Shown piece after piece: positions 22,399 through 37,135 of a DNA stretch of 64,000 nucleotides. Positions within the stretch are counted from its first letter, which is position 1, and the number at the start of each line of letters is the position of its first letter. The position numbers were made by a program, and so were the translations under genes. Location of the stretch: contig JAFDZW010000001.1 in the NCBI GenBank assembly GCA_018266755.1, forward strand, positions 273,635 to 337,634, in the 5' to 3' direction. This DNA comes from Bacteroidota bacterium. Lineage in GTDB: Bacteria; Bacteroidota; Ignavibacteria; Palsa-1295. The notes beneath the pieces were generated by a model. It worked only from the letters and a program-made list of their open reading frames with translations. It made no database searches and was not told where the DNA came from.

Positions 22399-23073
22399 TC
22401 AGAGGCTCCGAATGAGTCCTAAGAAATGCTGAAAGGACTCGAGGTGATCGGATTGTTGCTGAACTCGACTCTCAAGCGCACCTATGAACGCTTGGCTTAT
22501 TGCCGCTCCGGGGCGCGAGGGGTTGTATGAGCCACCACAGCCATGCATGAGTTCTCGTAGGTACTCTTTGTGAAACTGGTTGTAAGTGAACCGATGGTCA
22601 TAATGGCCGCACTTTTCTGGATCTTCAACAAAGACATTATGGTATGCAAGGTATTCTCGAAGCGGGCTTCCGATAGGAGAGATTGTTCGCAATGAATTAT
22701 TTCCGAGAAGCCAAGTCTCAAAACAACGGTTTTGGATGATGACGTGTAAGCTAGCGTGCAGCAGTTGGACGTCAAGTGCGCTTAGCCTCTTGAATACCTC
22801 TTGCACTCGAGGCGCTACACCTATCTCATCCCCGTCCAAGCATATCACTAGGTCTGTGTATTGGGGTAGTGAATTCAACTCAGAGACAGTATTCTTGAGT
22901 GCAACGTCGAGTATTCTTGGGTATCCACAACCACTGAATATATAGAACGAGTTCTCGGACGCGAGTTGCACCGACGGAACCCTTGAAAGGCCAGGGTTGA
23001 GCTTGTCAATCCAGGTAGGGTAGACCCTCTTCTCACAACTCCTCCCCTCCACCAAAAAGTAAACGTTTCTCAC
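22399..23073 (-). CDS. RloB-like TOPRIM-domain protein, probable nuclease effector
   Basis: 224 residues, GTG start overlapping the ATPase stop (GTGA). The TOPRIM core is clear: VYFLVEG with Glu9 and LVICLDGDEIG with Asp80 and Asp82, the metal-binding residues. The later IIQNRCFETWLLGN matches the FE-x-WLL motif of RloB/AbiLii-type proteins. TOPRIM proteins paired with AAA ATPases act in phage defence (AbiL, PARIS and OLD-like systems). Here the pair is translationally coupled. Nuclease activity and defence are inferred from motifs and context. Confidence 0.75.
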   Translation of the reverse strand: MRNVYFLVEGRSCEKRVYPTWIDKLNPGLSRVPSVQLASENSFYIFSGCGYPRILDVALKNTVSELNSLPQYTDLVICLDGDEIGVAPRVQEVFKRLSALDVQLLHASLHVIIQNRCFETWLLGNNSLRTISPIGSPLREYLAYHNVFVEDPEKCGHYDHRFTYNQFHKEYLRELMHGCGGSYNPSRPGAAISQAFIGALESRVQQQSDHLESFQHFLGLIRSL

Positions 23074-24203
23074 ACTCCGATGCCTTCTGTGAAGGGCTCT
23101 GAATTGAGCAGTTGGAGAAAGGCGTCATGTTTGCTTAGTCCTAGACCTAGATCGCCGGCGTCTCTCACTGAAACAACATGGCCACGTCTGAGGACGACGC
23201 GCCAAGATGGCATTGGTACCTGATTGATAATATAGGGATGGTGGCTGGTAATAATGAACTGGATGTCCTTTCGTTTCGACAGGATCACATTGGTAACGAA
23301 ATCAAGGCAGTTTACTCCCATGCTATTTTCAAACTCATCAATTAGGACTATGCTTCCTGGACTTGCCAAATATAGGTCTGCCAGATTACTTAGCGTACGT
23401 CTCATTCCGGATGAAACATTCTCGCTGCGAATCCAACGGTCGGCTTCCCTAATTTGAAGCAGATATCTTTCGTTATCTTCTCTGTCAAGGTTTTCAACAC
23501 TTGGTTGAACAAACCTCAAATCTTCAACTGTCGGAAAAATTTCCTTAAAAGCACCGAATATAGGAGCGACTTCCTCTGGGAAATAGCGGTATAGCTCGAT
23601 TAGCTTAAACTCGGAGGTATATGGTACCGCTATGATGCTTTGGGCGTCAGCATACGTCGGCTTGTTTGGCCAAGCGCTTGAGTCGGTAAACCAGGGTAAC
23701 TCGGCGCGCGACTGGTCGTGGAGAAACATTTTTTTTAGCCCCCACACCAGCTCGAACAGTTTATCTTCCTCCTCAAATAACGAAATTAGGCTCTCCGAGG
23801 ATGACAGCTTTGGTTCAACTTGCTTATTCTCAAAGAAAACCCCTCCGGGGCCACGTCGGGCGACTTCGGCACCTCCGAGATTAATCGTTTCGCGAAGTAT
23901 CCTTGGTGCATTCTCAGCGGTGGCTTGTCGCTCATACTTTGCGGGCACCTTCAAGACCCCAATATTTTCGAACTCACCCTCCCATACATATCGCTTGTTT
24001 CCACTAGCCTCGAATTCCGCACTCCAAGTCAACCCACTCACGGATGCACCGTGCGCGATTTCATGTAAAGAGAGGATGGCCCTCAGTATCAGGCTCTTGC
24101 CGACTCCGGAAACGCCCACAAGGAGATTAAAATCATCGAAGTAGGTCCGCTCGAGCTTCCACTCAAGCGCTTTGTTCTCGTACTCTAATGATACCAGTCT
24201 CAT
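23070..24203 (-). CDS. AAA-family (AAA_15/21-like) ATPase, partner of the TOPRIM protein
   Basis: 377 residues. Walker A is GVSGVGKS (30-37), the ABC-type signature lies in NVSSGMRRTLSNLADL, Walker B is IVLIDEFENS, and FIITSHHPYIINQ provides the switch histidine. This is the short SMC/ABC-like ATPase type found in RloA/AbiLi-like and OLD-like systems, with no DNA-binding or nuclease domain of its own. The stop codon overlaps the TOPRIM start. It begins 21 bp after the gyrB stop, on the same strand. Base composition is lower in GC than gyrB, which suggests transfer. Confidence 0.8.
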   Translation of the reverse strand: MRLVSLEYENKALEWKLERTYFDDFNLLVGVSGVGKSLILRAILSLHEIAHGASVSGLTWSAEFEASGNKRYVWEGEFENIGVLKVPAKYERQATAENAPRILRETINLGGAEVARRGPGGVFFENKQVEPKLSSSESLISLFEEEDKLFELVWGLKKMFLHDQSRAELPWFTDSSAWPNKPTYADAQSIIAVPYTSEFKLIELYRYFPEEVAPIFGAFKEIFPTVEDLRFVQPSVENLDREDNERYLLQIREADRWIRSENVSSGMRRTLSNLADLYLASPGSIVLIDEFENSMGVNCLDFVTNVILSKRKDIQFIITSHHPYIINQVPMPSWRVVLRRGHVVSVRDAGDLGLGLSKHDAFLQLLNSEPFTEGIGV

Positions 24204-26261: not shown

Positions 26262-26495
26262 TTACGGAATGCAGAAATCCGATGAATGAGAACAAGAAAA
26301 TGGGGGGGAAGGTTTGCGGAAAGGGAGTAAGACCTAACTCAATTCTGCGCTATTAACTGTCGCAGGATTCCCACTCCATTTGCAGTCTATTCGTTGTATC
26401 GCCAGTAGTAGCCGTCGAACCTTTGTATCTTTGATGAGTAGGTATAATCCACCCCTGAATATCTTAGGGTTGTGACGACAATGAGGGCAGTAGAA

Positions 26496-29084
26496 ATGAA
26501 GAAAATCGAGGAAACAAAACTCTGGCTAGCTATGAACGCTGCACCCGAATTGCAGCATGAGCTTTTGTCAATTCGCAGCAACTGTGAGAAAATAGCAGAT
26601 CGTGTCCAAGTTGTGCTTCCGGGGTATACTGACCACAGTGTGCGTCACATGGATGCACTCTGGGGGATTGCAGAAGTTGTCTTCACCGATAAGGAGCTTG
26701 AACGTTTCTCGGCTTCAGAGGTATTCGTACTCGGCGCCTCTTTTTATTTCCATGATCTTGGAATGGCGAGGGCTGCCACAGTCCAGGGCTGTGAGGATCT
26801 ACGTAATAGTGATGCATATCGAGCTCAGAAAAGCCGAGCGATTTCGGTTCTTGGGCTTGCTGAGCGAGAGGCGGACTTTCTTGCCTTGGAAGTGGGCGCT
26901 CGAGATACACATGCTGAATTTGCTGAAAAGTTGTGTAAGGAGGAGTTCCCGGGGTTGGGTCAACATGTGATTGAAAAGGCGGAGATTCGGCGTCATTGGG
27001 CAGATTACATAGCAAAGGTATCAGTGAGTCATCACTGGGGAATGGCAAGAGTTGAGAACGAGTTAGGCAAACGTCAAACGGAAAACAGTACCAGAGGTGA
27101 AGCGGTCAATCTATCATTTCTAGCTTGCGCACTTCGAATTATTGATTATGCTCATATTAACACAGAACGAGCGAACTATCTAGAGCGGGTACTAAGAACA
27201 GGAGTGAGCGGTTCAAGCTTGCTTCACTGGAAAGCCCAAGAGAATATCAGTCCACCGATTCGTGTTGAAAATAGGATTAAATACACCACTTTCCGACCAA
27301 TCGAGGACCAAGATGCTTGGTGGTTATTTTACGAAATGGCGACTGGACTGGACGTCCAAATATCCCTAGTCTCTGAATTCTTATCTAGTACAGTTACAAC
27401 GACGAACAGGTTTTCGTTGGAGGGAGTGTCTAGAGTAAGTACGCCCACAAATTTTGCTTCATTTGTCCAACCCTTCAACTTCGAACCTGTCGATGTCAGG
27501 TTTAAGGCTGATTCGATTGAGTCTGTTGCTCGACTGATAGAAACTGTAGGTGGCAAGACTCTATACGGTGACGATGATCTTGTTCCGTTGCGTGAGTTGA
27601 TCCAGAACGCAAGAGATGCGATAGTGCTAGAATCTCGTCAACGAAGGGCGGGTGACTTGCCGCACATCGACGGGAAGCTCATAATTGGGATGCTTGAGGA
27701 GAGTGGTGCTCGGACATTGATTGTAGAGGATAATGGAGTTGGGATGACGTCTTCTGTTATACGGAATTACCTTCTTGGCATCGCGACCAATTTCTGGGAG
27801 TCTCCTGAATTCTATAATGCATATCCGGACATACAGCGATCAGAATTTAGACCGGCAGGAAAATTTGGGATAGGCTTTCTCTCGATATTTATGGTTGGCA
27901 ATAAAGTTTCTATTGCTACTGAGAAACGAGGTGAGAAACGTTTCGAGATTGAGCTGCACGGATTGGACAAGCGGGGCGCGATGCGGGAGGTCACCCCGAA
28001 GGGTATTAATGGAACGAGAATAACCGTAAAGATCGAGAAGCAGAGCCCGGAGACTTATTCTGAGCTAGGGAAACGAGTTTCGCTTCGTGCCCCAATGCTG
28101 CCATTTGATGTTGAACTGCGAGAGAATGACAAGGTATCAATCCTGCAGAAGGAGTGGTGGAAGCGAATATCTCAGAAGGAACTGTACGACTTTGTTCTGT
28201 CATCCGAACACGAGATACCAAGGCGTAGGACCTCACCCCGAGAGCTTCGAGGAGTATCCGATTTTGATTTCACTGGAGAGTCATCAAAAAAATATGACGA
28301 CATTCCATTGGCAAAACGGTGGCTCGGTGATGCCCCAGAGTATGTCTCAAGTGACCGAAGGATTATTGCCATTCCAGGTTATGGCCGCGTCTTGCTCTGT
28401 TCGAAGGGCATTTCGATACAAACTATTAGGACTCGTGGGGTGGTTGGGCTCGTTGACATGGATGACGTGAAGCTAACCGCATCTCGAAACCAGACCATCG
28501 AGTGGGATTACAGTGCCTTTAACGTTTCCACATTCGCTGAATTGAAGGGTGGAATCGTACGAGCTATTGGAGCATTAGAAAGCGAAGGAATGATCCCTTC
28601 CCGCTCTGAGTTCCTCGTCACCGTTATCAGTGATTATGGCCCTTCTGTATTGTACGAAAGCACACTTCCATGGTTCAACGCCGTGCTTTCACCCGGTGAG
28701 TCTAGGCTGCTGACGACCGAAGGTGCAAAGCAGCTTCTTCTCGACAAATCGGAAGTGATGCTGTCGTATGGCGTTGGTCCGTGGTCCTCTGTTCCGGGGT
28801 GTAGGGCACGATTTCCTGGGGTAGCACCCAATGCTGTTGTTATCCCTGTCAGTAGAAGTGGACAGCCCAGCCTAAGGGGCAGCTATGATGATAAGAATAT
28901 CAGCGGGACTCTTGAATCACACTTTCATAACGAACCATATAGGTCAATGCAGAGGGCCTATTTGCTTAATGCATACCTTGAAGTTATAGCAACTGCCTGG
29001 GGTATGTCAAGCAAGGATTTCTATAACTCAGTTTCAATTCGGCAAGGCTCGGATGAGTTCTATGTCCACTTGTCACGAAGGTAG
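26496..29084 (+). CDS. HD-domain plus Hsp90-type GHKL ATPase protein, candidate defence or stress protein
   Basis: About 862 residues. The N-terminal HD-type metal-dependent phosphohydrolase region has GYTDHSVRHMD (first His), YFHDLG (His-Asp, about 86-87), VSHHWG and a late IIDYAH. It is followed at about 350-600 by an Hsp90/MORC-like ATPase: LRELIQNARDAI (N box), VEDNGVGM (G1) and GKFGIGFLSI (G2). The C-terminal 250 residues are unassigned. ATG 26496 is chosen for GAGG at 26483-26486; ATG 26481 and GTG 26472 are alternatives. HD-GHKL fusions of this kind are reported in bacterial conflict contexts. Codon use is AT-richer than gyrB. It is a single gene, divergent from gyrB. Confidence 0.75.
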   Translation: MKKIEETKLWLAMNAAPELQHELLSIRSNCEKIADRVQVVLPGYTDHSVRHMDALWGIAEVVFTDKELERFSASEVFVLGASFYFHDLGMARAATVQGCEDLRNSDAYRAQKSRAISVLGLAEREADFLALEVGARDTHAEFAEKLCKEEFPGLGQHVIEKAEIRRHWADYIAKVSVSHHWGMARVENELGKRQTENSTRGEAVNLSFLACALRIIDYAHINTERANYLERVLRTGVSGSSLLHWKAQENISPPIRVENRIKYTTFRPIEDQDAWWLFYEMATGLDVQISLVSEFLSSTVTTTNRFSLEGVSRVSTPTNFASFVQPFNFEPVDVRFKADSIESVARLIETVGGKTLYGDDDLVPLRELIQNARDAIVLESRQRRAGDLPHIDGKLIIGMLEESGARTLIVEDNGVGMTSSVIRNYLLGIATNFWESPEFYNAYPDIQRSEFRPAGKFGIGFLSIFMVGNKVSIATEKRGEKRFEIELHGLDKRGAMREVTPKGINGTRITVKIEKQSPETYSELGKRVSLRAPMLPFDVELRENDKVSILQKEWWKRISQKELYDFVLSSEHEIPRRRTSPRELRGVSDFDFTGESSKKYDDIPLAKRWLGDAPEYVSSDRRIIAIPGYGRVLLCSKGISIQTIRTRGVVGLVDMDDVKLTASRNQTIEWDYSAFNVSTFAELKGGIVRAIGALESEGMIPSRSEFLVTVISDYGPSVLYESTLPWFNAVLSPGESRLLTTEGAKQLLLDKSEVMLSYGVGPWSSVPGCRARFPGVAPNAVVIPVSRSGQPSLRGSYDDKNISGTLESHFHNEPYRSMQRAYLLNAYLEVIATAWGMSSKDFYNSVSIRQGSDEFYVHLSRR

Positions 29085-29407: not shown

Positions 29408-29575
29408 CTATTTCGCCAACACTTTCTGTGCTTGCTTCGGCATGGCAGCGACGAGCGTCAATAACGCCAACGCCGGGCCGCTGGGGGAGCGGCGGCCTTG
29501 CTCCCAGTTGCGTAGCGTACCGACGCTGACGTGCATCGTCAGCTTGAAATAGTCGAGCGTATCAGAGTTCAACAC
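29408..29575 (-). pseudogene. Truncated HigA-type XRE antitoxin remnant
   Basis: A 55-codon frame ending in TAG (29408-29410) encodes SVGTLRNWEQGRRSPSGPA, then LLTLVAAMPKQAQKVLAK. This is the second half of the HTH plus C-terminus of HigA-like antitoxins. The first helices are missing, replaced by an unrelated VLNSDTLDYFK lead, and the frame overlaps the end of higA by 14 nt. It is probably the relic of a second toxin-antitoxin locus joined to the intact one. Confidence 0.65.
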
Positions 29576-29855
29576 TCACGTGCAGTTTCCCTCCCAACCC
29601 CTGCTCGACGATTTTGATCAGGGTCGAGAGGCGGATGTCGCTGGCATCGTTCTCAATGCGCGAGATATAGGACTTGTTCGTATTTGCTTTGGCAGCGAGT
29701 TCGCTTTGCGAGAGGTGAAGCTCCTCCCGAGCTTGGCGAATCATCACTCCAAGCTTGAATGCCTCAAAGCCGCGTTCGAAGTCATCGCGCCGCTTGGTGC
29801 CGCGCTTGCCATAGCGCTTATCGAGATGTTCTCCGAGTGTGGTCAGCTTTTTCAT
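29562..29855 (-). CDS. higA: HigA/XRE-type antitoxin
   Basis: 97-residue antitoxin with a basic N-terminal extension and an HTH in the C-terminal half: IRQAREELHLSQSELAAKANTNKSYISRIEN reads as helices 1-4 in overlapping segments. It neutralises the HigB-like toxin and, with it, represses the operon. It is encoded second, overlapping the toxin gene by 38 bp, the order typical of higBA modules. The probable operator is the 20-bp palindrome at 30201-30220. Confidence 0.85.
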   Translation of the reverse strand: MKKLTTLGEHLDKRYGKRGTKRRDDFERGFEAFKLGVMIRQAREELHLSQSELAAKANTNKSYISRIENDASDIRLSTLIKIVEQGLGGKLHVSVEL

Positions 29856-30177
29856 CGCAATATTCCTTTCTGATTCGCAGCGCGCGCTGAATCTCTGAAC
29901 TCGGCGTTTTCCGAGTCTTCTTCTGAAAACCGTTTGCCACGATCACTAACTTCCCTGCATCGAAGAAGCAGAACATCCGATAGATATTGCCGCTCAACTC
30001 GACGCGTATCTCATACAATCCGTCTGTCCCTTCAACGTGCTTCAAGAACTTCTCCGGCACAAGTTCAAGAGACTCGACCAGCCTTAGTACATGGTCGATC
30101 TTCCGACGCACTGTTTCGGACTGCTCCTCAAAGAAGTCCAAGAAGTAGCGTTTGTAGAAGACAATATTCCTGATCAT
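29818..30177 (-). CDS. higB: HigB/RelE-superfamily toxin (PF05973-like)
   Basis: 119-residue RelE-fold toxin, expected to cleave mRNA on the ribosome. GLYEIRVELSGNIYRMFCFFD is split here as GLYEIRVELSG and NIYRMFCFFD, the hallmark beta-strands of phage-derived Gp49/HigB-like toxins. ANGFQKKTRKTPSSEI carries the usual basic KKT...P...EI end. The toxin precedes and overlaps the antitoxin. The last about 20 residues (DEKADHTRRTSR) lie in the overlap and may be dispensable. Confidence 0.85.
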   Translation of the reverse strand: MIRNIVFYKRYFLDFFEEQSETVRRKIDHVLRLVESLELVPEKFLKHVEGTDGLYEIRVELSGNIYRMFCFFDAGKLVIVANGFQKKTRKTPSSEIQRALRIRKEYCDEKADHTRRTSR

Positions 30178-30220: not shown

Positions 30221-30388
30221 ACGGGACCGAAACAGTTCAGAGACAAAGGTCTGCAGCCACGTTGTAGCAGTACCGGGATATTGCGAACGAATACCCTGTG
30301 AAACCCAACACCCCTCTCCCGCCGTTGTGCGGGCGATTGAGTTAGCCATTGCATTGCCAGATCCTTGCCACAAGCCGAGAGTAACCAG

Positions 30389-30799
30389 ATGAAGAACGAT
30401 AACAACAACGTGTTGGATAATGGGCCGTTTTATCACGGGACGAAAGCCGATCTGAAAGTTGGCGATCTCTTGACCGCGGGGTATCGGTCGAACTACAAAC
30501 CTGAGGTCGTTATGAATCACATCTACTTCACCGCATTGCCGAACGGTGCGGGGCTTGCTGCGGCGTTGGCGCCGGGAGACGCGCCGCAGCGTGTGTATAT
30601 CGTCGAGCCGACCGGCGACTTCGAGAACGATCCGAACGTGACTGACAAGAAATTCCCCGGCAACCCCACCCGCTCCTATCGAAGCTCGGAGCCGTTGCGC
30701 GTCGTGGGCGAGCTAACCGAATGGAATAGACTTACAGAAGAAGAGATCGCCGACTGGCGCGCACGCATCGCGAATATCAAAGGGGATATTATCAACTAG
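30389..30799 (+). CDS. arr: NAD(+)-rifampin ADP-ribosyltransferase
   Basis: Inactivates rifamycins by ADP-ribosylating the ansa chain. At 136 residues it has the full Arr length. FYHGTKADLKVGDLL, then VYIVEPTGDFENDPNVTDKK and FPGNPTRSYRSSEPLRV, are near-exact Arr signatures. ATG 30389 is preferred over the upstream in-frame 30365. It sits beside higBA in the accessory region, consistent with acquisition, although environmental bacteria often carry arr. Confidence 0.92.
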   Translation: MKNDNNNVLDNGPFYHGTKADLKVGDLLTAGYRSNYKPEVVMNHIYFTALPNGAGLAAALAPGDAPQRVYIVEPTGDFENDPNVTDKKFPGNPTRSYRSSEPLRVVGELTEWNRLTEEEIADWRARIANIKGDIIN

Positions 30800-32721: not shown

Positions 32722-32967
32722 TCATACAGGCTCGGCGACGGACACGAGCGCCTGCACCTGCACCCCGAGCGCCGTGGCGATGCGCGAGAGCGTATCGGCG
32801 CTGACATTCACGCGGCCGCGCTCGAGGTTGCCGACGAAGTTCAGGCTCAGCCGCGACCGCACCGCAAGCTTCTCCTGCGACCACGCCTTCGACTCCCGAA
32901 TCGCCCGAATATTCGACCCAATCGCGCGGCGAAGCGATAGTGCGTCCTGGGATAGGTGTCTTTCCAT
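32722..32967 (-). CDS. Small XRE-family transcriptional regulator
   Basis: 81 residues, almost all HTH: SNIRAIRESKAWSQEKLAVR, then LSLNFVGNLERGRVNVS and ADTLSRIATALGV. Such single-domain Cro/CI regulators commonly control island genes. It faces away from an XRE remnant at 33019-33213 and precedes the SMC-kinase operon region; a regulatory role there is possible but not shown. Confidence 0.8.
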   Translation of the reverse strand: MERHLSQDALSLRRAIGSNIRAIRESKAWSQEKLAVRSRLSLNFVGNLERGRVNVSADTLSRIATALGVQVQALVSVAEPV

Positions 32968-33018: not shown

Positions 33019-33213
33019 GTAGTATCAACAATCCTGCTCATCTCTGTTGACGCAAAAAAGCACGCCGAGAAAATGAAGCTACATAGAGCCTACGTAGTTT
33101 TTTTGGAGCGAGGGGAGAGGAATATCTCGGTGGATACGATTGTGGTGATCTCTGAGGCTCTTGGTGTCGCGCCTTGGGTGGTCCTGTTGCCTAAAGTCAG
33201 GAACTGGATGTGA
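33019..33213 (+). pseudogene. XRE HTH remnant
   Basis: Open frame whose middle reads MKLHRAYVVFLERGERNISV, then DTIVVISEALGVAPWVVLL. This is the recognition helix and later part of an XRE domain related to the neighbouring regulator. The first helices are missing, and the frame opens just after a TAG. ATG 33073 would give 46 residues. It is probably a broken copy at the island edge. Confidence 0.55.
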
Positions 33214-33275: not shown

Positions 33276-35237
33276 TCAACCGGAGGACATAATTGTTGGT
33301 ATTAGCACCCGAATTACAGACCTGACAAACGTCTGTTGTAACTCGGGCATAATCAATGACTGGGTTGCAACAAGGAAAAGTGCAGCTAGGTAATCAATCG
33401 CGCCTCCACCATGTGATTCCATGACTCCGACAGCATTATTGCGGGCGGCAACCATGCCACCCAGACAAATACGGGCGTGAGGGGAAGGCCCGAAGACCGC
33501 AGGATATTTTTCTATTAGTGCCGACATATCGTGTCGGGTTATCGATAGGTCGAAGACAAACTGATCAATGTCTGCCTCCTCACAGTATTGCCTTAGTTGC
33601 GAGAACATCAAGGCACACTGCAGACGAACCAAGTCCACGGCAGGGTGGCCTCGTCCACTGGAAGCAAAATCAATTAGATGCATTGACTCTTCGGCACTTA
33701 CTAATATGTTGCGAAGATGGACATCCCCGTGAATAATGCCCCTCTCCCTGTAGGCGGCGAGAATTGCGGTTGCCTTGGTCCGTGCAGCACCGAAGTCGGG
33801 ACCTAGCCTCCAGTTGTATCCCTTTTCCTCCAGATCGTTGATCTGCGAGACACTGGGATTCTCGTAAATCGTGAAGTCGTGGTTCGTTGACGTCCCCTTA
33901 TTTAGCTCGGCAAGGTGTGCACATAGATTTCTCAAACCGCTTTCCAAATTCGCAGTATAAGCAGGACTCAATTCATCCGTTCCCATTGCAGGAAAGATCT
34001 CTTTGTTCCAACATAGTTCTAATACATCCCATAGCATTGGGGCCGGTTGGGAGGTTCGGTCGGCACGGTTGACGAGCTTAAAGTAGAGTACAGCAGAGTC
34101 ACCATGGATGAATAACTCGGGCGTAATTGTTTCGTCCCATCGTTGGATAAATGTGCGGAAACGTTGCGTTTCTCGAAGAAGGGACTCCTTTCGATCTATC
34201 TTAGCCACGTAGTATTTCCCGTCATCATTCGTTTTTACGAGTGCAAGTTTTGCATCGGTACGACCACCGCGGAGAAATCTTGCTTCAACGCTCTTCACCG
34301 TAAACTCCTCGTAGTTTCTCAGACGGGACTCCATCTCGTAAGCGGCTGCTACCAGAAGGTGCGATTGGCCCTGCGTGAGGTCACCAAGAGTAAAATTTAC
34401 ACGTTTGTGGCGATTAAGAATATGTTGAGCATTAAAAATGCTCTCAAGCTCGGACTCTTTGATCTGAGGGCTGTTTTGTAGCGACAGAATTGTTGACGGT
34501 ACGTGGTCCTTCCGTGACTGCGCCGAGCGCACAATTGCCTCGATTTCATGATTTGAAAGGTGGGACGCAGAGACGTCAATGCGGAGCCAAGCGAAGGTGG
34601 AATAGACAGCTAGGTCTCCAATCAGCTTTGTCTGTTCGGCCTTGTTTAGCCCTTTCAGTACTGAGCTGTCGATCAACACAGCTACAATGTCATTGTTGGT
34701 AGAAAGCTGTAGCAATGCAGTTTCGGCGGTCTCAAGGCAGATAGGTACGAAACTAGGATCGAGAATATGGCGATATCTGTTTGCGTTGTGTAGCATAGTG
34801 AGAACTAGGACGGACATCCTCTCTGCCGAGGGATGCTGCAAGTCTTGATCCTTATTTGCCTTGGCTCGAGCACTGGGAGCGGGTGCCTTCACTCCTACCT
34901 GCTTCTTGAATAGCGACCCTCGGATTTCCTCAGACGCTGCCCCTAATATTTCGTTTCGAAGGTGAGACCTCAGCGATGGCGTCCTAGTAGACAAGAGCGT
35001 GAGTTCACTATCATCAAGTGCCAGTTTGTTGAGGACAGCTCTAAAGCGCGTTGCCTGCTTAAATTGGCCAACTCCAGGCGAATCGGCAAGTGCCACTCCA
35101 ATATCATGAGCAAGTTGTACCCGGTCCAGACCATGACTAGCTGGAGTAGTGGTTAGTTTGGATATCCCACTAAGGAAAGTCTGATCTTCTGGGGAACAGA
35201 CTAGTGTGATTCTTGAATCAACTTCCTGCGTACTCAT
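33276..35237 (-). CDS. Receiver-like plus aminoglycoside-phosphotransferase-like kinase protein
   Basis: 653 residues in three parts. About 1-110 is an all-helical module of unknown type. About 140-280 resembles a response-regulator-like (pseudo-receiver) domain (SVLVLTMLHNANRYRHILD, DIVAVLIDSSVLKG). About 310-640 is an APH/choline-kinase-fold domain with Lys346 (YYVAKID), catalytic loop HGDVHLRN (503-510) and metal aspartate in HLIDFASSGRG (Asp523). All key kinase residues are present. The start codon overlaps the stop of the SMC-like ATPase (TAATG), so the two are translationally coupled. I infer an NTP-dependent conflict or signalling system. It is not a plausible antibiotic-resistance gene given its size and partner. 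Confidence 0.7.
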   Translation of the reverse strand: MSTQEVDSRITLVCSPEDQTFLSGISKLTTTPASHGLDRVQLAHDIGVALADSPGVGQFKQATRFRAVLNKLALDDSELTLLSTRTPSLRSHLRNEILGAASEEIRGSLFKKQVGVKAPAPSARAKANKDQDLQHPSAERMSVLVLTMLHNANRYRHILDPSFVPICLETAETALLQLSTNNDIVAVLIDSSVLKGLNKAEQTKLIGDLAVYSTFAWLRIDVSASHLSNHEIEAIVRSAQSRKDHVPSTILSLQNSPQIKESELESIFNAQHILNRHKRVNFTLGDLTQGQSHLLVAAAYEMESRLRNYEEFTVKSVEARFLRGGRTDAKLALVKTNDDGKYYVAKIDRKESLLRETQRFRTFIQRWDETITPELFIHGDSAVLYFKLVNRADRTSQPAPMLWDVLELCWNKEIFPAMGTDELSPAYTANLESGLRNLCAHLAELNKGTSTNHDFTIYENPSVSQINDLEEKGYNWRLGPDFGAARTKATAILAAYRERGIIHGDVHLRNILVSAEESMHLIDFASSGRGHPAVDLVRLQCALMFSQLRQYCEEADIDQFVFDLSITRHDMSALIEKYPAVFGPSPHARICLGGMVAARNNAVGVMESHGGGAIDYLAALFLVATQSLIMPELQQTFVRSVIRVLIPTIMSSG

Positions 35238-37135
35238 TATGCTTCCAACAACTGTTTGTATTTAGCCTCGCGTTTTTGGAATGCATCTATGCCGCCTTCG
35301 AGAAGATCCAGAATGTCAAATTTTCTCTCGTCAACTGATCCGACTTTCGGTGGGTTTGCACGGTGGGGAGTGTCCATACTCATCACTACGATACTCTCGG
35401 CCTCCCCTAATACAGGGATATTTGCATTGTGAGTGACAAAAATGATCTGGCGACTCTCTTTTAGCTGCGTGATTGCGTCAATCAGACGTTCCGTGATGTG
35501 ACGATTGTCGAGATCGTCCTCTGGCTGGTCAAATATCAGCGGGTAGGGTAGTGGTCTCAGTATGAGAGGGAGAATTGCAGTTGCCTTCTGCCCCTTGGAC
35601 AGTGTTTCGATTGGCTTCGCCACTCCATCATCGAACATCACTATCTCAAGCTGGCACAGAGGTGGGGTGACTTCCAGCTCGAAGAGTGATTCGTGGTCCG
35701 ACAAATGTGCGATTACCCTTTGCATCTGCCCAATATCTCGACCAAGCAATTCTGCCATTCCAATGCTGTCTGCCTGCTCTACATAGTCGACTAATTGGAA
35801 TGGTGTGAGAGTGGACGCAATTTGTCTTGCAACTTCGTCGCGAAATTTTATCCTGGAGCCGCTCAGCATGTCAGTTAGGGCAGTTACATATTTTGGTGAC
35901 CCTGTCCCGTAGCGGAGTGTCAATTGTATACGCTGAGCGTGTTCTTCGTTTATCTTCTCCACCTCTTCGAACCTTGTATCAAATATCTTTCCATCGAGCG
36001 ATTCAATTTCCGCCCGCAATTTCTGGCGCTCGAGATTGAGCGTGTCGCGTCTCTTTTCCGCTTCGTCAAGTTTCTTCTGCACAGATGCTAGCAATACTTG
36101 TTGCTTGTTCAACATCTCCTTCCGCTTAAGAAACTCGTTTGCACGTTGTTGCTCCTGTCTCAATCTAAAGTAATTCGCGTTCAAAGATGTAAAACGTTCA
36201 GAAACTCGAGGTACGATTGTTTTGAGGTTATCCTTCTTGAGTATGCCTAGGGTTGAGATCACTGCCGGAATACCGTCAACAAAATCATCAAACGGCTGCT
36301 TAGTTGTTAAGTCTGAAGAAAAGTCCGCGTCGCTCTGAAAACCAGAGTATAGCCGCAGGGCATGTTCAAGTCTGTCTCGCAAGACTCTCACATCTTCAAG
36401 TGTTTCAGACTGAAGCATCGCCAATTCGTTCAGTTCTGCCAACACTCGATTTCTCCGCTCAAATGAAATATTCTCAACCTCAAGCTCGTTGGAGATCGAG
36501 GGTGAATTTTGGTTGAGTTCCTCAAGCTGACGCTGAACGTTAGCCGAAGGCTGAAGCTGTTCCTTTTGAATCGCGATCTCAGAATTCACAGATCGAAGGT
36601 CATTTCCCACCTTCCTTAATTGCCCTGCGAGGTTGTTCCTTCTTAACTGGAGCATGAGGATGTGAGCAGCCTTTGGTCTGTCAATCAAAGCGAGCCTCAA
36701 TCCTTCATCAGCCTGGTCTGCCAATTCTTGGATTTGACCCTGGGAGTATATTTCAACGCAATTTGAAAAATCGTTTGTTTCGAGCTCTCTAATGTCGTCC
36801 TCGAAGATGGTTGCCTCTGAACCAACCTCTCGCTCAATCACAAACCTAGATTCGTCCGTGTCGTCCTGTCGCAGCAACTCGCAATTAACGGTGCCAAAAC
36901 CAAGTGTGTTCTGGATAATCCCCGATTCAATCGTCCTTAGCTTCTCATCAGATCCGTGACGCAAGGCAAATCGGATACTTTCGATCACTGTGGACTTGCA
37001 CGTCCCTCTCGCGCCTATGATACATGTGAGTTTAGGGCTGAACTGTATCTTGCAGTTCTCCAGAAATCCACCTGTCGTCGAAATTGAGCTAAGAGTGTAT
37101 CGCATATTAGAGTCGAGTATGTTGTACGGTAGCAT
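35237..37135 (-). CDS. SMC/RecN-like coiled-coil ATPase
   Basis: 632 residues. The N-terminal ATPase half has a Walker A-like GARGTCKST (41-49), in which the last glycine before Lys is replaced by Cys. Then comes a long coiled coil (about 170-420; QQRANEFLKRKEMLNKQQ, AEKRRDTLNLERQKLRAEI). The C-terminal half has the signature LSKGQKAT, Walker B YPLIFDQPEDDLDN and switch IIFVTHNANIPVLGEAE. This is the single-chain SMC-like type seen in several anti-phage systems. ATG 37135 follows an in-frame GTG at 37138. It is the first gene of a two-gene operon with the APH-like kinase, and AT-richer than the neighbouring housekeeping genes. Confidence 0.82.
   Translation of the reverse strand: MLPYNILDSNMRYTLSSISTTGGFLENCKIQFSPKLTCIIGARGTCKSTVIESIRFALRHGSDEKLRTIESGIIQNTLGFGTVNCELLRQDDTDESRFVIEREVGSEATIFEDDIRELETNDFSNCVEIYSQGQIQELADQADEGLRLALIDRPKAAHILMLQLRRNNLAGQLRKVGNDLRSVNSEIAIQKEQLQPSANVQRQLEELNQNSPSISNELEVENISFERRNRVLAELNELAMLQSETLEDVRVLRDRLEHALRLYSGFQSDADFSSDLTTKQPFDDFVDGIPAVISTLGILKKDNLKTIVPRVSERFTSLNANYFRLRQEQQRANEFLKRKEMLNKQQVLLASVQKKLDEAEKRRDTLNLERQKLRAEIESLDGKIFDTRFEEVEKINEEHAQRIQLTLRYGTGSPKYVTALTDMLSGSRIKFRDEVARQIASTLTPFQLVDYVEQADSIGMAELLGRDIGQMQRVIAHLSDHESLFELEVTPPLCQLEIVMFDDGVAKPIETLSKGQKATAILPLILRPLPYPLIFDQPEDDLDNRHITERLIDAITQLKESRQIIFVTHNANIPVLGEAESIVVMSMDTPHRANPPKVGSVDERKFDILDLLEGGIDAFQKREAKYKQLLEA

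Follow-up and report, generated by a model that had tools for sequence, protein, structure and literature searches.

Organization of an ATPase/kinase gene pair

We analyzed a 64,000-nt stretch of DNA from a Bacteroidota bacterium (GenBank assembly GCA_018266755.1, contig JAFDZW010000001.1, positions 273,635 to 337,634), hereafter the window, whose own positions are used as coordinates. Two uninterrupted open reading frames (ORFs) on its minus strand form an operon, in which a gene for an SMC-like ATPase of the TrlF/Ppl type devoid of a PHP domain (35237..37105) lies upstream of a gene encoding a 653-aa protein with a receiver fold and a TCAD9/APH kinase domain (33276..35237). At the junction, stop and start codons share one base (TAATG) within GCATAATGAGT (35233..35243, minus strand), which bears out the translationally coupled two-gene operon of an SMC-like ATPase and a kinase that an earlier note, made from the letters alone, had described here. 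The ATPase would be 622 aa long if translated from the ATG at ~37105, and 632/633 aa long from the alternative starts at 37135 (ATG) or 37138 (GTG). The shorter version is probably the genuine one, because the homologous ATPases of a Rhodothermaceae metagenome-assembled genome (MAG; L040) and of Oryzomonas japonica (L048) begin at the position of the ATG at 37105.

The pair resides in an AT-richer stretch, as previously noticed. Its GC content is 0.482 compared with 0.540 for the window, i.e., below 99.6% of equal-sized windows, and GC at third codon positions (GC3) is 0.49-0.51 vs 0.64-0.83 in housekeeping neighbors. Promoter and terminator scans of the locus yielded nothing decisive.

The ATPase is the PHP-less half of TrlF/Ppl proteins

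Pfam matched the ATPase to SMC_N (3.6e-13) and AAA_21 (9e-12), and the Walker A (GARGTCKST), signature (LSKGQ), Walker B (LIFDQPED), and H-loop (THNAN) motifs were all found. The SMC/RecN-type fold class proposed earlier thus stands, and the identity of the protein can be narrowed further. Indeed, the NCBIfam model TrlF (NF045780) matched residues 16-628 at 4e-79, covering only TrlF positions 290-944, with a score of 267 bits that falls under the curated cut-off of 350. This model also recognized the ATPases of L048 (3.3e-84) and L036 (2e-77), while the window protein further matched NCBIfam Ppl_antiphage (1.7e-35) and PADLOC Ppl (1.3e-26). Pfam detected no PHP domain in the ATPase, and the TrlF match starts only at position 290 of the model. 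On these homologies, the window protein is the ATPase half of the TrlF/Ppl family of PHP-ATPase fusions, without the PHP part.

The ATPase also matched LmuB (6e-10) and mad3 (4e-13), and the kinase protein weakly matched mad6 (4.5e-4), so that the pair could be read as a variant of Lamassu or MADS in which the effector is a kinase. We regard this as very improbable: the LmuB matches are short and motif-level (residues 13-124), that to mad6 covers the HGD motif only, TrlF instead spans the ATPase, and no further Lamassu or MADS genes were found nearby.

The kinase protein combines a helical module, a pseudo-receiver and an APH-fold kinase

The earlier note had divided the 653-aa protein into a helical N-terminal module, a receiver-like domain, and an intact APH-fold kinase. 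An AlphaFold model built on a four-sequence alignment reproduced this layout: the N-terminus is all-helical, a five-stranded alpha/beta domain follows, and kinase-like segments occur in the C-terminal region. The full-length model is of modest confidence, with a mean pLDDT of 60; a response regulator and APH kinases were its top PDB matches, none below E = 0.001.

The N-terminal module (residues 1-109; 34911..35237, minus strand) was modeled with seven helices in the range of residues 3-109, and its length and position are kept in the four homologues. It has no family match, and its profile showed no significant similarity to the N-terminal region of the plasmid histidine kinases described below. 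The middle domain (residues ~141-278; 34404..34817, minus strand), modeled alone, reached a mean pLDDT of 71 and a pTM of 0.66, and the top Foldseek matches in the PDB were mostly response-regulator/receiver domains (target TM ~0.6-0.65, probability 1.0). The receiver first read from sequence is therefore recovered as a five-strand fold in the predicted structure, on which the assignment rests because the sequence-profile comparison of receiver regions was empty. Strand 3 ends in Asp190, which occupies the receiver phosphorylation position and is invariant in the four homologues. On the other hand, the acidic pair that follows strand 1 and the Lys that follows strand 5 are lacking. As modeled, the middle domain is a pseudo-receiver that retains the Asp and misses the other catalytic residues.

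The C-terminal part (residues ~313-652; 33282..34301, minus strand) matched TCAD9 (1.2e-13) and APH (3.8e-11), both exceeding Pfam cut-offs. K346, E356, H503-G-D505, N510, and D523 are invariant in the kinase domain of the four homologues, and from the conservation of these catalytic residues the kinase is predicted to be active.

TCAD9/APH effectors belong to vWA-MoxR conflict systems (PMC7159879, PMC10910872), and both the window kinase and most relatives exceed the TCAD9 cut-off. Membership in a vWA-MoxR ternary system, the core requirement of which is linked vWA and MoxR genes, is nevertheless even less probable than a Lamassu or MADS variant. No vWA or MoxR match was obtained in ten proteins scanned around the locus or among the annotated neighbors of the plasmid cassettes described below, and the TCAD9 match is restricted to the kinase part of the protein.

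The two genes remain together in other genomes

Scanned against IMG/VR, plasmids, genome contigs, and 149 relative genomes, the window kinase matched only itself. A search of the phylum uncovered a second full pair in the Rhodothermaceae MAG, with an identical TAATG junction, and a profile-guided scan covering 84,980 species genomes yielded further pairs. In O. japonica both genes are present and abut each other; the ATPases of these two loci are 42-43% identical to that of the window. In a Verrucomicrobia MAG (L051/L065), the kinase and the matching ATPase lie near two different contig ends. A 9-bp target duplication (ATGGCACTT) is present at both, together with related ends of insertion sequences, and the two genes overlap across the target site. 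From the DNA at the contig ends, nothing but an insertion sequence thus separates the two genes of this pair. Co-location of homologues, the point on which the earlier note had asked to be judged, is thus observed as adjacency in the Rhodothermaceae MAG and Oryzomonas, and as an insertion-split pair in the Verrucomicrobia MAG. All complete two-gene kinases found have the ATPase adjacent or separated by an insertion, and the two-gene ATPases form a single clade in the ATPase tree (support 100/100).

A Planctomycetota MAG contains only a C-terminal kinase fragment, located behind a transposase-like ORF, and no such ATPase. Behind this truncated gene (L050, 8973-10126), the opposite strand has ORFs that by eye resemble an Mrr-like nuclease and a domain of the GHKL type.

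The phylum-wide TCAD9 search returned matches in 80 genomes, which were mostly generic kinase-motif matches, and several candidates were discarded. L002-L003 encode kinases with an N-terminus that looks STAS-like by eye and L004 an NTPase-linked kinase, in all cases with no adjacent TrlF-like ATPase. L005, in a fourth genome, is merely a 207-aa C-terminal fragment of a three-gene-type kinase among transposase-like ORFs. A search for an empty site through the AhpC gene in the same family recovered none, because the AhpC neighbors differ.

Plasmid relatives carry a histidine kinase or a PHP domain

A protein search with the ATPase retrieved 916 plasmid records, and we inspected the neighbors of six matches annotated as "AAA family ATPase". 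All six lead a conserved operon in which the ATPase gene is followed by genes for an HATPase histidine kinase and a receiver-APH protein of 476 aa. The latter two genes accompany every PHP-less plasmid relative inspected. Searching back with the receiver-APH protein, we found the full-length gene in ten host genera, with the complete cassette in nine of the ten. The histidine kinase is cytosolic, with HisKA-like and HATPase parts; N and G boxes are present, and the conserved His occurs in all except a short copy from Piscirickettsia. The receivers of the three-gene form possess the full catalytic set (acidic pair, Asp, Thr/Ser, and Lys). At the DNA level, the Klebsiella cassette was in no E. 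coli genome, and the sources searched hold no name for this arrangement.

The window pair resembles this cassette in its homologous ATPase (24-28% identical), in its kinase domain (profile match probability 98.9, E 1.4e-17), and in its layout, with the ATPase gene first and the kinase gene last, tightly packed on one strand. It differs in lacking a histidine-kinase gene, as do the L040 and L048 loci; in the window, the 1-base overlap leaves no space for one between the pair. Furthermore, the helical N-terminus is longer in the window form, its receiver is incomplete, and the ATPases of the two forms fall into separate clades.

Piscirickettsia, with 36 records matching the receiver-APH kinase, offers a divergent case. 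Its plasmid locus (L054, 4434-6410) retains the receiver-APH gene and the short histidine kinase but has no ATPase, and is apparently a decaying copy. This locus bears on a toxin-antitoxin-like or addiction module, in which the kinase would be a growth-arresting toxin (cf. HipA, PD-T4-6) restrained by the ATPase and selected for maintenance on mobile DNA. The tight translational coupling of the pair, the intact catalytic motifs of the kinase, and the VapBC, Fic/VbhA, and HigA genes adjoining the three-gene plasmid relatives would all fit such a module. However, a toxin in need of constant restraint should not persist as it does in Piscirickettsia plasmids, where the ATPase is absent. In addition, the partner is no small antitoxin but a 620-aa ATPase homologous to an anti-phage family, and the histidine kinase and receiver of the three-gene form point to signal-dependent activation. 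We therefore deem an addiction module unlikely.

The seven PHP-bearing TrlF plasmid loci inspected are all without such a kinase, which suggests that a single ATPase chassis takes either PHP or kinase as its output module. Two of the PHP-bearing genes occupy distinct settings. One lies immediately after brxL in a Klebsiella grimontii plasmid (L057, 93-4863), and the other, on an IncC plasmid (L060, 2221-6134), is placed together with an RNA-binding-domain gene inside a type I restriction operon, with the S gene on one side and the R gene on the other.

The SMC/RecN/Rad50 type of the ATPase, the small-molecule substrates often used by APH-fold members, and the two-component parts of the plasmid form would also suit a signaling or repair module outside defense, with the ATPase reporting DNA damage and the kinase adjusting metabolism, e.g., by phosphorylating a small molecule. 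We consider this somewhat less likely again than an addiction module, since the rare, sporadic, low-GC, and mobile distribution and the swap between PHP and kinase better match conflict systems, as do the restriction and BREX settings of PHP-bearing relatives.

Genes surrounding the pair in the window

The earlier note had placed XRE genes on both flanks, which does not hold. Both the intact XRE gene (32722-32967) and a decayed XRE/HTH-like remnant (ERGERNISVDTIVVISEALGV, ~33057-33210, plus strand) lie downstream of the kinase gene, the remnant between this and the intact gene, while the ATPase side borders a peroxiredoxin gene. Being confined to the kinase side, and one of them decayed, the XRE genes do not flank the cassette and are no conserved part of it.

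Elsewhere in the window, an overlapping gene pair (22399-24203, minus strand; GC3 0.50-0.52) is likely an AbiL/PARIS-like defense pair by its matches: one product is an AAA ATPase with similarity to AriA (4e-18) and AbiLi (3e-16), and the other, of 224 aa, gives a weak AbiLii match. An 870-aa protein (26472-29084, plus strand; GC3 0.46) combines HD-CE (2e-35) with an HSP90-like GHKL ATPase domain and is a candidate conflict or defense gene, for which PADLOC gives no close match. A Gp49/RelE-type toxin with its helix-turn-helix (HTH) antitoxin (29562-30177, minus strand) adjoins a gene for an Arr rifampin ADP-ribosyltransferase (30365-30799, plus strand). Three further candidates of low GC3 or of toxin-antitoxin type thus lie within 15 kb of the pair, interspersed with native-type genes. 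These surroundings are consistent with a defense island, though one mixed with native-type genes.

A putative immunity module with a kinase output

The gene structure, the conserved pairing, the domain identities, the intact kinase motifs, the loss of receiver residues, and the kinase homology across forms are established here. We infer a defense role from the homology to Ppl, from the low GC and the island context, and from mobility and the swapping of effectors, and by analogy it is somewhat probable that the pair constitutes a mobile immunity-type module of two genes that uses the ATPase chassis of TrlF/Ppl. Several observations weigh against this proposal. The receiver regions of the two-gene and three-gene forms do not align by sequence profile, and the ATPase tree does not decide whether the two clades, each strongly supported, are sisters (46/25). 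The family is rare and sporadic in the genomes scanned, with no carrier among phages or in IMG/VR. Finally, defense is argued by analogy because PADLOC has no model of the pair.

In the immunity module envisaged, the ATPase would be the sensor, responding to DNA of an invader or to a nucleic-acid structure, as has been suggested for SMC-like immune ATPases related to it, and its ATP-driven conformational change would release or activate the APH-fold kinase. This kinase may then halt growth or phage production by phosphorylating a host (or phage) protein or a small molecule. In the three-gene form, the histidine kinase would phosphorylate the receiver that controls the APH kinase, whereas in the two-gene form, devoid of this relay, the ATPase probably acts directly on the kinase through the pseudo-receiver and the helical module. 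The direction of change would run from three genes to two. More tentatively, these forms may delineate a defense class in which one ATPase chassis works with either a fused PHP enzyme or a kinase encoded apart from it, and in which a two-component phosphorelay gates the kinase in plasmids and a phosphorelay-free pseudo-receiver does so in the two-gene form. Such a class would link, in evolution, phosphorelay control of an immune kinase to its direct control by the ATPase.

If this holds, the TrlF/Ppl family gains a kinase output under receiver control, and the swapping of output modules would be demonstrated on a single ATPase chassis. The pair also provides a compact test case for how an SMC-like sensor switches on an effector, and whether direct coupling has replaced a phosphorelay can be tested by comparing the two-gene and three-gene forms.

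Relation to known systems

Neither PADLOC (2023 version) nor NCBIfam holds a matching ATPase/kinase pair, in agreement with the earlier statement that no named system is known to combine these components. The figure legend of predicted systems in the DefensePredictor study names HATPase and REC, and an overlap with the three-gene form is possible (PMC13092281).

Among known systems, TrlF (NF045780)/Ppl, in which PHP is fused to an SMC-like ATPase, shares with the window pair an ATPase part homologous over its full length, and its relatives likewise occur in mobile, defense-linked surroundings. The window ATPase differs from it by the absence of PHP, a sub-cut-off score, and a kinase gene coupled in place of the PHP domain. 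Lamassu (LmuA/LmuB) similarly couples an effector gene to an SMC-like ATPase, but the similarity to LmuB is motif-level only and no Lamassu effector model matches the kinase. The vWA-MoxR systems have the kinase-domain family in common by Pfam, whereas no vWA, MoxR, or VMAP genes were seen at the window locus. Detocs is a defensive two-component system composed of histidine kinase and receiver proteins with an ATP-cleaving phosphatase as effector. The three-gene relatives likewise drive an effector by histidine kinase and receiver; however, the effector here is an APH-fold kinase with no phosphatase domain, an SMC-like ATPase is present, and the window operon dispenses with the histidine-kinase gene.

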